A DNA stretch of 23,209 nucleotides. Source: a virus. Numbering within the stretch: position 1 is the stretch's first letter; each line of letters opens with the position of its first letter. This document shows, in pieces, positions 2,759-13,926 of the stretch. The position numbers and the translations under genes are program-made. The stretch is taken from positions 1 to 23,209 of the IMG/VR virus record IMGVR_UViG_3300025547_000036. One strand, written 5' to 3'. Under the pieces are notes generated by a model. That model was not told the DNA's origin. It saw only the letters and a program-made list of their open reading frames with translations, and ran no database searches.

Positions 2759-3073
2759 ATGAAACCCCCCCGCTCCCAAACAATCATAGCAATAATACTC
2801 ACAATGATATTTATTACTATTGCAGTATTAGTCTTAGCTTTTGTAGGGATTTTATTAGAAAACAAGACAGCGGTGGCTTACGAAAGACCAGAAGTATGGG
2901 AGTTACAAATAGAAGAGTCTGGTAGATGGAGTGGGTGCTCGGTTTCAGGGACGTGTTCAGAGAGTTTGACAAGACTTTACCTTAAAGACAGACCTAAATA
3001 TTATAGTAAGTACGAACAAGACAGTGAGGAGTATTGGTGGGCTTATTGTACTTTAACAGATAAATGTAAATGA
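2759..3073 (+). CDS. Single-pass membrane protein with exposed cysteine-bearing domain, 104 aa
   Basis: A basic N-terminus (MKPPRSQ) precedes a long hydrophobic segment (about residues 8-34), then a roughly 70-residue hydrophilic, aromatic-rich domain with four cysteines (SGCSVSGTC, AYCTLTDKC). The inside-positive N-terminus predicts that the C-terminal domain lies outside the membrane, where the cysteines may form disulfides. No family is recognised. The stop TGA overlaps the ATG at 3070. It may modify or sense the host envelope; this is inference from topology only. Confidence 0.55.
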   Translation: MKPPRSQTIIAIILTMIFITIAVLVLAFVGILLENKTAVAYERPEVWELQIEESGRWSGCSVSGTCSESLTRLYLKDRPKYYSKYEQDSEEYWWAYCTLTDKCK

Positions 3074-3426
3074 ATATGATATGTCCTTATTGTAAAAAAG
3101 AAGCAAGATGGTGCGAAAATAAAGAACGCTATGGTAGAAATTACGGTAAATCTTATATGTGCTACTGGTGTCAAAACTGTGATGCGTATGTGGGGTGTCA
3201 TCAGAATACTAAGAGAGCTTTAGGGACTATGGCAAATAAAGAGCTTAGGGGATGGAGAATGAAAGCACACGCTTCAATAGACCCTATCTGGAGGAATGGA
3301 CACGCACACAGAAAAAAAGTTTATAAAGATATGAAAAGACACTTTGGGCGAGAGATACATATTGGAGAAAGTAATATTGAACAATGTAAAGATATTATTA
3401 AATGGGCAACAACACCAATAACTTGA
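3070..3426 (+). CDS. DUF3268-type zinc-finger-containing phage protein, 118 aa
   Basis: The N-terminus carries MICPYCKKEA, and a second pair CYWCQNCDAYVGCH follows at residues about 31-44, so four cysteines are placed to bind zinc. The downstream segment LGTMANKELRGWRMKAHASIDPIWRNG and the final HIGESNIEQCKDIIKW match my memory of the DUF3268 zinc-finger-containing family, found in phages and prophages with no firm biochemical role. The length is normal for the family. Two starts are possible: 3070 (ATGA overlap) and 3076, which has the AT-rich context GAATATG. The family match is fairly secure. Confidence 0.7.
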   Translation: MNMICPYCKKEARWCENKERYGRNYGKSYMCYWCQNCDAYVGCHQNTKRALGTMANKELRGWRMKAHASIDPIWRNGHAHRKKVYKDMKRHFGREIHIGESNIEQCKDIIKWATTPIT

Positions 3427-3453
3427 CCCACCTAAATCATATGGCATTATAAG
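3423..3453 (+). promoter_or_regulatory. Sigma70-like promoter before structured RNA 2
   Basis: TTGACC at 3423-3428 matches five of six -35 bases. TATAAG at 3448-3453 (spacing 19), or TTATAA at 3447-3452 (spacing 18), can serve as the -10. Transcription would begin near 3459, right at the upstream copy of the ATAGTTCTTT repeat and just before the RNA. The -35 overlaps the end of the preceding gene. Spacing is slightly long, so strength is uncertain. Confidence 0.45.
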
Positions 3454-3457
3454 AGTA

Positions 3458-3639
3458 ATAGTTCTTTCTAAGTAGCAGTGGACGAAAGTCCCTCACCGCA
3501 GGTGTACATCGTGAAGCAGTGGAGGAGTGCAGAAGTCTAGCATAAGTGAAAGCGACCGACATAAGCGTCCTACGAAGCTGTGATAACTTCACAAGAAAGC
3601 GGTTGACTGCTACTTTGAGGGTGTTATTTATAGTTCTTT
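3458..3639 (+). repeat. 10-bp direct repeats flanking structured RNA 2
   Basis: ATAGTTCTTT occurs at 3458-3467 and again at 3630-3639, 172 bases apart. The copies sit just outside the closing helix of the RNA on either side. They could mark the borders of an inserted element, or be part of the RNA's own function. Ten bases in an AT-rich genome can recur by chance, but the symmetric placement is striking. Confidence 0.45.
3470..3615 (+). ncRNA. Candidate structured RNA 2
   Basis: This gap has no ORF but forms a strong fold. A perfect 10-bp helix (3470-3479 with 3606-3615) closes the element. Immediately inside is a hairpin GGAC-GAAA-GTCC (3480-3491, GNRA tetraloop). Next to it is CACC-GCA-GGTG (3494-3504). 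A 6-bp helix with one G-U (3553-3558 with 3600-3605) abuts the closing helix and would stack on it. A further perfect 6-bp helix links 3511-3516 with 3587-3592. It crosses the 3553-3558/3600-3605 helix in the drawing, so it would make a pseudoknot or an alternative fold. No known RNA family is recognised. The region is richer in GC than its surroundings, which supports a selected structure. Confidence 0.65.
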
Positions 3640-3660
3640 ACAATTTATAGGAGAATAGAA

Positions 3661-3894
3661 ATGAAAACTGTACAGAAGTGTTTAAAATGTGGAAAAGTAA
3701 ACTTTAATGGTGTATGGTTCAGACCAAAAATCCTACAAAAACACTATTTAAGGAGGGTAGCAAACGGCACAATAAAAGGTATTACTTTAGTGATAGACTA
3801 TTGTGATGGTTGTGCCAGTATATTAGACGGTATAGCTAAGGAGCAAAAACTAAGACAAAAATGTAACTGCTTAGGTCAAGGTAATTTTGATTAA
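3661..3894 (+). CDS. Small zinc-ribbon protein, 77 aa, with canonical SD
   Basis: The protein opens with KCLKCGKVNFNGVW and closes its metal site with DYCDGC near residues 47-52. This is a CxxC...CxxC zinc ribbon around a basic, beta-forming middle. Two more cysteines follow in KCNCLG. AGGAG at 3649-3653 stands 7 bases before the ATG, a textbook SD that most other genes here lack. It follows structured RNA 2 by 45 bases and lies upstream of a small membrane-protein gene, within an apparent promoter-to-terminator unit. Nucleic-acid binding is plausible, and the RNA upstream is an obvious candidate ligand, but that is speculation. Confidence 0.65.
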   Translation: MKTVQKCLKCGKVNFNGVWFRPKILQKHYLRRVANGTIKGITLVIDYCDGCASILDGIAKEQKLRQKCNCLGQGNFD

Positions 3895-3944
3895 ATGTAT
3901 ATAAACTTGCAAGTTTCTATCTTTTCAAAGAAAGATGTAAACAA

Positions 3945-3952
3945 AAAGGAGG
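3945..3952 (+). promoter_or_regulatory. Strong Shine-Dalgarno deciding the 3958 start
   Basis: AAAGGAGG lies 5 bases before ATG 3958 and only 2 before ATG 3955. It makes 3958 the likely start rather than the frame's first ATG at 3895, which has no SD and would sit directly against the previous stop. Confidence 0.7.
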
Positions 3953-3957
3953 TTATG

Positions 3958-4104
3958 ATGATAACCGTAATAAAAGCAGTAGCAGTGTTTTACTTCTTCT
4001 TTATTGTCTATCCTTGTAGGTATCTTAATTTTACACGACATTGGGATATGCACAGGCACAGACAAGCAGAAAGTAGAATGAGTAGGTATCGTTCAAGTAG
4101 TTAA
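3958..4104 (+). CDS. Small membrane protein with basic tail, 48 aa
   Basis: From ATG 3958 the 48-residue product has a hydrophobic segment (residues 2-19, VIKAVAVFYFFFIVYP) and then a strongly basic, histidine- and arginine-rich tail (RHWDMHRHRQ, SRYRSSS). An N-out or hairpin-free single-pass topology with a cytoplasmic basic tail fits. The open frame extends back to 3895, but AAAGGAGG at 3945-3952 argues for the short form. It is the last + strand gene before the terminators. Small hydrophobic phage peptides with basic tails include toxin-like and holin-like products; nothing here decides between them. Confidence 0.55.
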   Translation: MITVIKAVAVFYFFFIVYPCRYLNFTRHWDMHRHRQAESRMSRYRSSS

Positions 4105-4142: not shown

Positions 4143-4172
4143 AGCCACCAAAACATCGGTGGCTTTATTTTA
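4143..4172 (+). terminator. Rho-independent terminator of the + strand genes
   Basis: AGCCACC (4143-4149) pairs with GGTGGCT (4158-4164) around an 8-base loop, followed by TTTATTTTAT. The 7-bp GC-rich stem plus T-rich tail, 38 bases after the last + strand gene, is a good intrinsic terminator. Confidence 0.8.
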
Positions 4173-4180
4173 TAAACAAA

Positions 4181-4204
4181 GAAACCCGCTTTTACACGGG
4201 TTTC
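4181..4204. terminator. Bidirectional terminator hairpin
   Basis: GAAACCCG (4181-4188) pairs perfectly with CGGGTTTC (4197-4204) around CTTTTACA. On the - strand the stem is followed by TTTGTTTATAAAA; on the + strand by ATTTACTT. It fits best as a - strand terminator for transcription from 4304 downward, and may serve both strands. Confidence 0.65.
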
Positions 4205-4251
4205 ATTTACTTATAAGGGTTAGTTTATACTTCCCACTTCTGGGGCATAGT

Positions 4252-4269
4252 CAATCGTTTAGTAGATTG
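4252..4269. other. Inverted repeat next to the - strand promoter
   Basis: CAATC (4252-4256) and GATTG (4265-4269) are separated by 8 bases, just downstream of the putative -10 at 4277. The placement suits an operator or a transcript-start hairpin. Five-base arms are weak evidence. Confidence 0.25.
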
Positions 4270-4275
4270 CTAGTA

Positions 4276-4304
4276 CACTTTATCATATATCAAATATTTG
4301 TCAA
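4276..4304 (-). promoter_or_regulatory. Sigma70-like promoter in the convergent gap
   Basis: On the - strand a perfect TTGACA (4304-4299) is followed after 16 bases by TAAAGT (4282-4277), which matches four of six -10 bases. Transcription would start near 4270 and run about 90 bases to the hairpin at 4181-4204. No convincing ORF lies in that stretch; the longest start gives only MPQKWEV. Confidence 0.4.
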
Positions 4305-4315
4305 TAGGTATAACT

Positions 4316-4337
4316 GAAAAAAGCCCCTAGGAGGCTC
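4316..4337 (-). terminator. Terminator at the end of the late operon
   Basis: On the - strand AGCC (4336-4333) pairs with GGCT (4325-4322), extendable by a wobble pair, and TTTTTT follows at 4322-4317. It lies about 95 bases beyond the last late gene, as expected for the operon end. Confidence 0.6.
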
Positions 4338-4403
4338 TCTTCATTAGTATGGACTATTAACACATCAAATTGTTTGAACAACTTAATGTTTAATAATCTA
4401 TTT

Positions 4404-4433
4404 TTCCGCCATATTAACTTAGGCGGAACTTTT
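4404..4433 (+). terminator. + strand terminator guarding the late operon end
   Basis: TTCCGCC (4404-4410) pairs with GGCGGAA (4422-4428) around an 11-base loop, followed by CTTTTTATTT on the + strand. It ends at the stop codon of the last - strand gene and so would stop early transcripts from running antisense into the lysis genes. On the - strand the stem is followed by A residues, so it acts in one direction. Confidence 0.6.
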
Positions 4434-4606
4434 TATTTCTCTGCTATTGGCTTTGTAGTAACCATTCTAAGTGAGATGTCCACTAGAGATTTTACTATTC
4501 CAACGTAACCTATCATATCTAAATCTGTGAATACTGCTATTGCTATACCTCCTATTGCCTGAATAATTGCTAATTTTACTGTACGTGATTTAAGTAATTG
4601 TTGCAT
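4433..4606 (-). CDS. Small phage membrane-associated (holin-like) protein, 57 aa
   Basis: ATG at 4606 in an AATAATATG context opens a 57-residue frame ending at TAA 4435-4433. The first part (LLKSRTVKLAIIQAIGGIAI) is a moderately hydrophobic segment. The tail VDISLRMVTTKPIAEK matches the C-terminal style (R-x-x-T-x-K-P-I/L-x-E-K) of small phage proteins found next to endolysins and often called holins or holin-associated. It is the last gene of the late operon, 23 bases after the endolysin. A helper role in lysis is likely from position; pore formation is unproven. Confidence 0.6.
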   Translation of the reverse strand: MQQLLKSRTVKLAIIQAIGGIAIAVFTDLDMIGYVGIVKSLVDISLRMVTTKPIAEK

Positions 4607-9405: not shown

Positions 9406-10107
9406 TTAGAATTGATTACGTTTTATAAGGGCATCTTGTATATCTCCATGAACCACATTAACTCTTTTAAACATACCTCCTCTAGTCTTGTATGTCTTAT
9501 AGTTAAATTGTTCATCAAGGTAATTCTTAAATACTCCGTCTAGTATCTGTGTTGCTCTGTCATGATGGAAGTTTGCTACGTCTTCTTTCTTTTCTCTTGT
9601 ATTAGCATACGAAAGCACCTCTTCCACAATAGCGGTATTACCCTCCTCATCTCCATTAGAGAAGATTGTTGTTGAAGTAAGCTCAGTCATATCAATAGCT
9701 ACAGGTGGGAATTGACCCCAAGTTGTAAGAGTACCTGATGCGTCTGTGTTAGGATTTATATATACAGTTCTACCAAAGTCAGAGAAGATTTTATCTGTTC
9801 CTGATGCTTCCTCTTCTTTAAATATTTGATAGTCTTCAAAAGTAACCTTTTCAAATCTCTTACCTCCTATTTGTAGTATTCGTATAGAGTCTGCTTTAAT
9901 TCCTTCAAAGTTCCATTCCTCATTAGCTGAGGTATAAGTAGTTTCTTGTTTACCCTCTGAGAAAGGCCATTTCCTATAAGCAGTAGCCCATCTCTCTGCT
10001 TGTTGAATCCAATCATCTAAGATTGCGTCAGTATAAAAAGCTGTGGTAGTTGTGATACCTAGTTTTACTATTACGTCATTTTTTATATCATTTGATGTGA
10101 CTAACAT
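9406..10107 (-). CDS. Head-tail adaptor (gp4/tail-tubular A-like), 233 aa
   Basis: The N-terminus FYTDAILDDWIQQAERWATAYRKWPF is a helix pair with the W-x-x-x-A-x-R-x-W-P pattern that many phage head-tail connector and tail tubular A-like proteins use to dock on the portal. A beta-rich middle follows (residues 55-150), then a helical C-terminus. The length fits an adaptor that extends the portal channel. Its place just after the beta-rich protein and before the internal proteins agrees with podovirus order. A TAA-T-ATG junction joins it to the preceding gene. The family name is by pattern, not by search. Confidence 0.6.
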   Translation of the reverse strand: MLVTSNDIKNDVIVKLGITTTTAFYTDAILDDWIQQAERWATAYRKWPFSEGKQETTYTSANEEWNFEGIKADSIRILQIGGKRFEKVTFEDYQIFKEEEASGTDKIFSDFGRTVYINPNTDASGTLTTWGQFPPVAIDMTELTSTTIFSNGDEEGNTAIVEEVLSYANTREKKEDVANFHHDRATQILDGVFKNYLDEQFNYKTYKTRGGMFKRVNVVHGDIQDALIKRNQF

Positions 10108-11767: not shown

Positions 11768-12558
11768 TAGTAATCAAACTTATCTAAGTCTACTTTGTAG
11801 TATTTACCTCTAAAGAAGTACTTATCTGCTTTACTTAATTTAACTCTTCGCCATCTTATCTCTCTAAAAAGTGCATTAAACTGCTGTCTGACACTCTCAT
11901 CTTCAAGTAGTGTGGTTATAATCCTACGAAATAACCTCTGCCTTTCTTTCATATCTCCTATTATTTCTCCATGTTCTAACCAAGGTAGTGCTTTTGTAAA
12001 CGCCTTTGCTGGGTTAAAAAACTTAAGAATAGGGAAGTATGAAGCTAGCCATTGAAGTCTAAAACGATAAGAGTCATCTTCTTGTAAGATAAAACATATT
12101 AAGTCCCTTAATTGTAGGTGTGTACCTATCTTAGTCCACGCTCTATGTATCTCTCTTACAGACTTAACCATTTTACTAGCAGGTAGCCTGTCATATTCAG
12201 TATCTTTCATCAATTCATAGATGTTTTCTAGTGGTTTACACACATTAAATGGTTCATTTGTCTCTAAATTAGACCAGTTATCGTTAAATATCTGATTCTT
12301 TATTTCATGCTTTAGTTTAGATAATTGACCATATAAGAGCCAACCACGAGGGAATCCAGGGAATATATGGGGTTCTCCATCCATTTGCATCACTGTAACA
12401 CCATCTATTTCCATTACTTTTGCTTGTACAGCATTAGTATGTTTCCAGTATTGAACCATAGGCATCTTAGCTGGGTTCTTCCGTAAAATTTTAAAGAACA
12501 GTCTTTTTAGTTTTATAAACATAAGGGTATGCTCGCTCCCTTTCGTGTAGTCAGGCAT
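11767..12558 (-). CDS. Hypothetical phage protein after the capsid gene, 263 aa
   Basis: The product is helical and basic, with aromatic-rich stretches (GFPRGWLLYGQL, LQWLASYFPILKFF, RWRRVKL). It has no recognised domain and no clear membrane segment, although residues about 165-190 are fairly hydrophobic. It lies between major capsid and tail genes, so a structural or assembly role is probable. The start is uncertain. The frame opens at ATG 12558, but a strong hairpin (12531-12593) covers that codon. The ATG at 12522 (giving MFIKLKRLFF, 251 aa) lies beyond the stem with an AT-rich leader, and I slightly prefer it. Confidence 0.55.
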   Translation of the reverse strand: MPDYTKGSEHTLMFIKLKRLFFKILRKNPAKMPMVQYWKHTNAVQAKVMEIDGVTVMQMDGEPHIFPGFPRGWLLYGQLSKLKHEIKNQIFNDNWSNLETNEPFNVCKPLENIYELMKDTEYDRLPASKMVKSVREIHRAWTKIGTHLQLRDLICFILQEDDSYRFRLQWLASYFPILKFFNPAKAFTKALPWLEHGEIIGDMKERQRLFRRIITTLLEDESVRQQFNALFREIRWRRVKLSKADKYFFRGKYYKVDLDKFDY

Positions 12559-12593
12559 TCTGCGAAAGGAGAAATGTCCGACTACGAACGAGC
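12531..12593 (-). other. Large intercistronic hairpin after the capsid gene
   Basis: On the - strand GCTCG (12593-12589) pairs with CGAGC (12535-12531). Inside it, TTCG pairs with CGAA and TAGTC pairs with GACTA, with one bulge. The top is GGACATT against AATGCCT with one mismatch, under a 13-base loop. Upstream is a 12-bp palindrome AGCTAATTAGCT (12591-12602). No T-run follows, so this is not a plain terminator. It may shield mRNA ends or reduce translation after the capsid gene. Confidence 0.55.
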
Positions 12594-12603
12594 TAATTAG
12601 CTA

Positions 12604-13926
12604 CTAAAAACTACCAAAGAGCATAGCTCCAAGCTTCCTTGCTAAATCAGGTACTTTCGCTCCGTAGAGGAATAGTCCTTGATATAGTTTAGCAAATTGC
12701 TTTTCAGCATCTACAACTCGGGACTCACTCCATTTGTCTGCAAATGTAACGAAACCGATTTGGTTTGCTGGAATCTGGTAACCTGTTACTCCTGCCGTTA
12801 GTGCAAGGTCTCCACCAAATCCTGCCGCTGTTGAGCGACCTGTTCTAGTAGATACTCTTGAACCTGCTGCTGAGTGAACATCAAACCCACCAAGTCGCAT
12901 TACACGACCATTTAGAACTGTACCTGAGAAAATCTCAGCAATTCCTGTAGGTTGTAGTTCACTAGCTTGACGAAGCATAGTGATACCTGATGGCGGTAGT
13001 GTGATTTTACGAGATTCCGTTGGAACTTCGTTTTCATCCAACGCTTCTGATAGAAGAGTTGTTTGGTCATAGATAGTAGAAGCTGTAACCGCTGTTGCGA
13101 TTGCTGCTTGAATCTCCCATCCAAGACTTGCCATTGTTGTCAATTTAGCATTTCCATCTCCATATTTAGGGAATGAAATACCGTCTCCACCGAAGAGTCC
13201 ACGTAGTGTGTCTCCTTCTGCAAAGTCAGAACCTCCTGTTGCCTCATCCCACTCTGTAAGAGTAGCTGAGATTGAACTTGTAACTCCTGATATTCTATAC
13301 CAAGGAGAAACAAAGGCTGCTGTTGAACGAAGTCGGAATCCTTTGAATAGGTCTGAACCTTCAAACCCTGTCATGTAAAGAAGACCATCTGCTGGGTTTT
13401 CAGCAGGTGATACTCCACCTCCATTCACTACGTTGGTTGAGATTGTTACTGTTCCGCCTGTTGCTGTTGTAGCAATAGATGCCATAGTCTGACCTGAGCC
13501 AGCTACTATGATGTTTGTACCAATCCATGAACCTGCTTTAGCATTTTCAGCGGTCTTATTCAATACATATGTATCAATTTCTCGCTCAAGTACTTTAGCA
13601 GAGTTCTCAACAAGGACATCAGGAATATCTCCACCGTATGTGAAGAGGTCTTCCAATCGGTCAAGAGAGAAGTTGTAACTCTTTCTTTTCTCTACGATAA
13701 GTATATCTTCGTGGTCTACGATTGTTTCAGACGGCATGTCTGACCCAACTGTGTAGTCACTTAGTAGTATATCGTTAAGGAAAGATAGAATGTTTACTCT
13801 ATCTCCTGGCTTTTTAATGTCTCCTTCGTAGTTTCTGTTTGCAATAGCGTCAACAACTGCACTCTGGTATACCTTTCGGAGTACCTTAGATGCAAATTGT
13901 TCACCAAAATTACTTAATGTTGCCAT
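12604..13926 (-). CDS. Major capsid protein (HK97 fold), 440 aa
   Basis: The protein follows a scaffold gene and is of typical capsid length. The N-terminal part (FGEQFASKVLRKVYQSAV, then DRVNILSFL) and the C-terminus (DAEKQFAKLYQGLFLYGAKVPDL) match the arm and final A-domain strand seen in P22-like and other HK97-fold coat proteins. Residues about 145-250 are Gly/Thr/Ser-rich with many beta turns, which may be an inserted surface domain. Start ATG 13926 has an AATAATATG context. The inferred role is the icosahedral shell. Confidence 0.75.
   Translation of the reverse strand: MATLSNFGEQFASKVLRKVYQSAVVDAIANRNYEGDIKKPGDRVNILSFLNDILLSDYTVGSDMPSETIVDHEDILIVEKRKSYNFSLDRLEDLFTYGGDIPDVLVENSAKVLEREIDTYVLNKTAENAKAGSWIGTNIIVAGSGQTMASIATTATGGTVTISTNVVNGGGVSPAENPADGLLYMTGFEGSDLFKGFRLRSTAAFVSPWYRISGVTSSISATLTEWDEATGGSDFAEGDTLRGLFGGDGISFPKYGDGNAKLTTMASLGWEIQAAIATAVTASTIYDQTTLLSEALDENEVPTESRKITLPPSGITMLRQASELQPTGIAEIFSGTVLNGRVMRLGGFDVHSAAGSRVSTRTGRSTAAGFGGDLALTAGVTGYQIPANQIGFVTFADKWSESRVVDAEKQFAKLYQGLFLYGAKVPDLARKLGAMLFGSF

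Follow-up and report, generated by a model that had tools for sequence, protein, structure and literature searches.

The window analysed here, a stretch of 23,209 nt of viral DNA, carries at positions 3470-3615 a segment that the initial annotation described as an unassigned structured RNA, closed by a perfect helix around two hairpins and two crossing helices. The locus raises the question of which parts of this architecture are real, and of what they may do in front of protein-coding genes. The segment lies between the stop codon of a DUF3268 gene (3070-3426) and a gene for a 77-aa CxxC protein without PHROG or Pfam match (Table 1). As originally stated, no ORF explains it, the ORF list of the window containing none of at least 60 aa over this interval. 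Its GC content of 49%, compared with 37% for the window, is in the top 2% among 146-nt stretches. The element is also flanked on both sides by boxA-like repeats, which the initial annotation had overlooked.

Table 1. Positions of the features in and around the 3470-3615 element
Feature	Positions	Strand	Remarks
Possible promoter	3423-3452	+	TTGACC (3423-3428), 16 nt spacer, extended -10 CATTAT (3445-3450) or TTATAA (3447-3452)
boxA-like repeat 1 (boxA-1)	3459-3467	+	TAGTTCTTT; GTTCTTTCTAA matches GYTCTTTAANA at 9/11 positions
P1, 5' arm	3470-3479	+	AAGTAGCAGT; analogous to a leader-trailer helix
Interior	3480-3605	+	126 nt, GC-rich; GAAA hairpin plus possible crossing helices
GNRA hairpin	3480-3491	+	GGAC-GAAA-GUCC
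Hairpin	3494-3504	+	CACC-GCA-GGUG
Crossing 6-bp helix	3511-3516 / 3587-3592		GUGAAG / CUUCAC
Crossing 6-bp helix	3553-3558 / 3600-3605		CGACCG / CGGUUG
P1, 3' arm	3606-3615	+	ACTGCTACTT; pairs with 3470-3479
boxA-like repeat 2 (boxA-2)	3631-3647	+	TAGTTCTTTACAATTTA; GTTCTTTACAA (3633-3643) matches GYTCTTTAANA at 10/11 positions
Shine-Dalgarno sequence	3649-3653	+	AGGAG; 5 nt 3' of the boxA-2 core
First gene after the leader	3661-3894	+	77-aa CxxC (zinc-ribbon-like) protein; homologue in G008 is the second of the small genes that follow the leader
Second gene of the unit	3895-4104	+	Short, 69 aa; terminator-like hairpins follow
Terminator-like hairpins	4143-4164 and 4181-4204		Downstream of the 69-aa gene

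Closing helix and interior

The closing helix P1 (AAGUAGCAGU with ACUGCUACUU) is present as proposed, with 10 Watson-Crick pairs, and a Watson-Crick helix of at least 10 bp spanning at least 100 nt arises in only 0.1% of shuffles. With P1 included the segment folds at a z-score of -2.2; once P1 is removed, the interior gives -0.8 or -0.03, so that the energetic signal is that of P1. When the window is compared with the related phage G008 in the register set by their shared repeat, four of the ten pairs are changed on both sides, six are unchanged and none is broken; comparisons in slid registers fail. This test involves two distinct sequences only (that of the window and its identical relative G007, and that of G008), and the covariation support for P1 may be described as modest but clean.

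Both hairpins of the interior are found where they had been placed. A GNRA hairpin with a 4-bp stem arises in 1.9% of shuffles, and P1, perhaps together with this hairpin, exceeds chance. The two crossing 6-bp helices also exist, but a crossing pair of helices of at least 6 bp occurs in 32% of shuffled interiors, and at least as many such helices in 41%; the supposed pseudoknot is thus at the level of chance, and it is not conserved in G008. Competing pairings are available as well, ACCGC/GCGGU being incompatible both with CGACCG/CGGUUG and with CACC/GGUG. The proposed absence of a known RNA class was borne out by the covariance models of Rfam 15: there was no match at the gathering score, the best sub-threshold hits being unrelated (E-value of 0.6 or worse), and no credible match even at an E-value of 10. 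Two segments, GAAAGUCC and ACAAGAAAGCGG, presumably resemble CR-I and CR-V of RNase P; an RNase P-like core was nevertheless rejected, given the lack of an Rfam match at E 10 and a different helix order.

Homologues of the interior were sought by BLAST in phages and plasmids, by scanning IMG/VR for exact patterns and with a single-sequence covariance model run over the relatives and the boxA loci; the identical phage was the only one recovered. The syntenic interior of G008 is unrelated, being AU-rich and then C-rich and mostly unpaired. Covariation among homologues, the check proposed initially, has a divided outcome, with compensatory changes in P1 and no counterpart of the interior in G008. 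The sequence within P1 is best read as mostly replaceable spacer or cargo, and evolution appears to keep the frame, not the knot, although the GC-richness of the interior for this genome hints at an importance of its own. Of the original description, a non-coding segment with a real closing helix stands, while the pseudoknotted interior architecture is not supported; a ribozyme or riboswitch inside P1, which the size of about 146 nt had been taken to allow, is unsupported.

Flanking repeats and the frame shared by two phages

Relatives of the window were found via the coat protein. The 40-kb phage contig G007 is identical to the window over all 23,209 bases and is consequently uninformative on structure and covariation. 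G008 (37.5 kb, coat protein 89% identical) includes the same early region. In the latter, a possible promoter is followed by TAGTTCTTT, a 15-bp closing helix, 15-17 nt, TAGTTCTTT extended by AATTT, and a ribosome-binding site. In both phages the 5' side reads TAGTTCTTT[C/G]TAAGTAG, the partner arm lies downstream, and TAGTTCTTT recurs before the CxxC genes. The 77-aa CxxC protein is 38% identical to the product of L019:7513-7728, and the small membrane-type proteins encoded upstream are alike in both phages as judged by eye; on these two similarities the places are taken as syntenic. Contig L302, which has a relative of one G008 early gene, was discarded, because that gene is not syntenic and lacks such a leader.

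The arrangement TTCTTT, helix, TTCTTT was found among the relatives examined at these two places and in one 9-bp case in another contig. It occurs once per real genome (G007/window and G008), compared with three times in 80 genome shuffles. Among the loci listed for the 86 viral contigs containing AGTTCTTTNTAAGTAG, it was seen only in G007 and G008; it is carried by two distinct phages only. The putative promoter of the window matches at 9 of 12 positions, with TG preceding the -10 element; scores of that level are near chance in the region (6 found vs 4.6 expected), and a promoter at this site appears plausible, if statistically weak. If transcription started near 3457, the transcript would carry boxA-1 at its 5' end. 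In G008, a TATAAT lies at a comparable distance from the first repeat.

The flanking repeats are boxA-like, as judged from their sequences. They were scored against the published consensus of the NusB-S10 site, GYTCTTTAANA (PMC5725501), from which the boxA of the host may differ. On this scale boxA-2 agrees well and boxA-1 weakly, the latter lacking the AACAA part and being degenerate in its 3' part; it is kept in G008 as TAGTTCTTTGTAAGTAG. The second repeat of each phage runs into AATTT exactly like the boxA of rrn operons. That of G008, TAGTTCTTTGATAATTTA, shows an 18-nt identity with bacterial contig L120, 33 nt upstream of where the 16S rRNA model begins; the many Pelagibacteraceae matches of this 18-mer share one context that looks protein-coding and were left out. 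In the window, boxA-2 resembles both this 16S rRNA leader and the E. coli rrn leader GCTCTTTAACAATTTATC, and the form AGTTCTTTACAATTTATAGG is similar to GCTCTTTAACAATTTATCAG of the latter; the E. coli leader box is present at seven places per genome in the complete genomes checked. What the sequences compared show directly is the frame with its synteny between two phages, the covariation of P1 and the identity of the G008 repeat with a 16S-leader boxA.

The boxA sequence is not restricted to these phages. Intergenic TAGTTCTTT(A/G)ACAATTTA was found before or among tRNA genes in unrelated phage contigs (L202, L193 and the L209/L246/L260 group), and the same boxA precedes a closed RNA and a tmRNA in L216. 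The helix just 3' of boxA beats all 60 shuffles in L216 (11 bp), L193 (16 bp) and L239 (20 bp); in the same test, the site in the window was matched by one of 60 shuffles and that of G008 by none. Such a helix is lacking downstream of many other phage boxA sites, so that the combination of boxA and closing helix is recurrent, not universal.

Possible function and alternatives

Known cases of boxA-mediated control are rRNA operons, lambdoid nut sites and the leaders of a few mRNAs, suhB among them; the put RNAs of phage HK022 are promoter-proximal phage leader RNAs whose structure acts on RNA polymerase. The element resembles the lambdoid nut sites in being a promoter-proximal phage leader with boxA; however, no boxB-like hairpin was found beside the boxes of the window, whereas in G008 a single short hairpin precedes boxA-2, and the proteins scanned include none that is N-like. 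In layout the element resembles rrn leaders. In E. coli, boxA binds NusB-S10 and is proposed to keep the leader near RNA polymerase for pairing of leader and trailer, and a second boxA precedes the 23S rRNA (PMC10250234). In the phages, likewise, a boxA-like sequence stands directly before a helix arm with a downstream partner, and a second boxA precedes the next gene; the leader-trailer-type helix, supported by covariation, starts just after boxA in both (10 bp in the window, 15 bp in G008). These 10-15 bp are, however, fewer than the more than 17 bp needed by E. coli 16S rRNA, and the helix encloses approximately 100-130 nt of non-conserved RNA instead of rRNA; moreover, the element precedes protein genes, and its first box is degenerate in the 3' part. 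As in the 5' UTR of suhB, where Nus factors mediate translational repression and boxA lies 6 nt from the Shine-Dalgarno sequence (PMC5725501), boxA-2 is close to the Shine-Dalgarno sequence, at a distance of 5 nt in the window and of 11-12 nt in G008. Unlike suhB, the phage leader has a helix between two copies of boxA, and the gene that follows does not encode a Nus factor.

The succession of boxA-1 and P1, together with boxA-2 placed 5 nt before AGGAG, recalls both layouts and favours a Nus-dependent leader. We therefore consider the element to be, with a probability of about one half, a boxA-bracketed, rRNA-leader-like 5' UTR of the operon 3661-4104, arranged as promoter, boxA-1, self-closing long-range helix, boxA-2 and ribosome-binding site, and acting through NusB-S10 antitermination and/or translation control via boxA-2. 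Under such a model, boxA-1 of the nascent RNA would bind host NusB-S10 (NusE), tethering the 5' end to RNA polymerase. The tether would help the P1 arms to pair over approximately 126 nt and would shield the untranslated stretch from Rho, while boxA-2 would load the Nus complex anew for the genes that follow. Alternatively, as in E. coli suhB, boxA-2 and the 30S subunit may be competitors, expression then being set by the supply of Nus factors. We infer Nus binding, antitermination and translational control, and equally the direction of the effect, be it antitermination or repression. With two genes behind the leader, the operon of the window is short, so that it is not obvious what would be gained by antitermination.

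The same features could instead belong to an RNA gene whose product would be a trans-acting structured RNA or ribozyme of about 146 nt; boxA would only secure transcription, as it does for rRNA, and P1 would serve as a processing or closing stem. The GC content of 49% within a genome of 37%, the low frequency of the GNRA hairpin in shuffles (1.9%) and the occurrence of boxA before non-coding RNA units in unrelated phages speak for this explanation, and a functional RNA within P1, released from a boxA-protected transcript, is possible, GC-richness and the GNRA hairpin pointing there. On balance we regard the RNA-gene explanation as unlikely, in view of the interior z-score of -0.8, the chance level of the crossing helices, the unrelated and mostly unstructured interior of G008 and the absence of a homologue from the collections searched. 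A related and about equally doubtful idea is that phages carry RNA genes built like rRNA operons, with promoter, boxA, leader-trailer helix around a structured non-coding RNA and second boxA; the 126 nt would here be a new functional RNA whose identity varies by phage.

In a cis-acting leader independent of Nus factors, the repeats would be sites of a phage or host regulator or belong to a transcription-start motif, with P1 as an ordinary stem that stabilises the mRNA or causes attenuation. Such a leader would agree with the departure of boxA-1 from the consensus at the AANA part and with the possible -10 elements before the first repeat in both phages. It leaves unaccounted for, however, the extension of the second repeat into AATTT exactly as in rrn boxA and the recurrence of TAGTTCTTT(A/G)ACAATTTA before RNA genes of unrelated phages, and we find it rather improbable. 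The inverted repeat flanked by direct repeats in both phages would also suit a small MITE-like mobile element, with the P1 arms as terminal inverted repeats and TAGTTCTTT as a 9-bp target duplication. This was rejected as highly improbable on the asymmetric spacing (15-17 nt from the 3' arm to the second repeat, 0-2 nt from the first repeat to the 5' arm, in both phages), on the membership of the second repeat in a longer boxA, on the single copy per genome with no homologue elsewhere, and on the fact that P1 diverged through compensatory changes whereas the supposed duplication did not change.

In other phage contigs, rrn-like boxA sequences stand ahead of tRNA groups, of a tmRNA unit and of closed RNAs. 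Together with the boxA-bracketed, helix-closed leader in a phage whose host is uncultured, they suggest that phages may widely borrow the host rRNA antitermination signal for untranslated RNA.

Further RNA structures

Several other RNAs were noted alongside. In L216 (11553-12093), a promoter-like sequence and boxA are followed by an RNA of approximately 170 nt, closed by GCAGTGGGGGC/GCCCCCACTGC and without Rfam match, and then by the phage tmRNA. In L193 (8750-8976, minus strand), boxA, an RNA of approximately 180 nt closed by a 16-bp helix, a promoter-like stretch and a second boxA form a tandem of such units within a tRNA-rich phage region. A conserved RNA beginning AGATAGTGGCGGAACAAC...GTAACGCACAA, unannotated and without Rfam match at gathering, lies just after boxA inside the tRNA arrays of L209, L228, L238, L246, L260, L266 and L196. 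The end of contig L122 carries apparent Illumina adapter sequence (GATCGGAAGAGCGTCGTGTAGGGAAAGAGTGT).

Within the window, a compact closed pseudoknot RNA was found at 12531-12593 (minus strand), between the coat-protein gene (12604-13926) and the next gene, with no match in Rfam. Present in four related phages (G007, G008, G012 and G011), it consists of a P1 of 8-9 bp, a hairpin P2 of 8-12 bp and a pseudoknot of 7-8 bp between the P2 loop and a downstream strand (CCTGACG/CGTCAGG, CCTGGCG/CGCCAGG and TCCTTTCG/CGAAAGGG). All three helices stay paired despite sequence change, and this RNA is much better supported than the 3470-3615 element. The sequence TGTTCTTTAAAATT, also near the coat-protein gene, was not counted as a boxA, being coding (LFFKIL). 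The strongest-folding stretch of the window (z-score of -6 to -7) lies at about 4229-4448 on the minus strand, at the 3' end of the late genes encoded on that strand, and comprises tandem hairpins with a conserved CCATACTAAT that are present in G008 too (L019, about 9480-9530).
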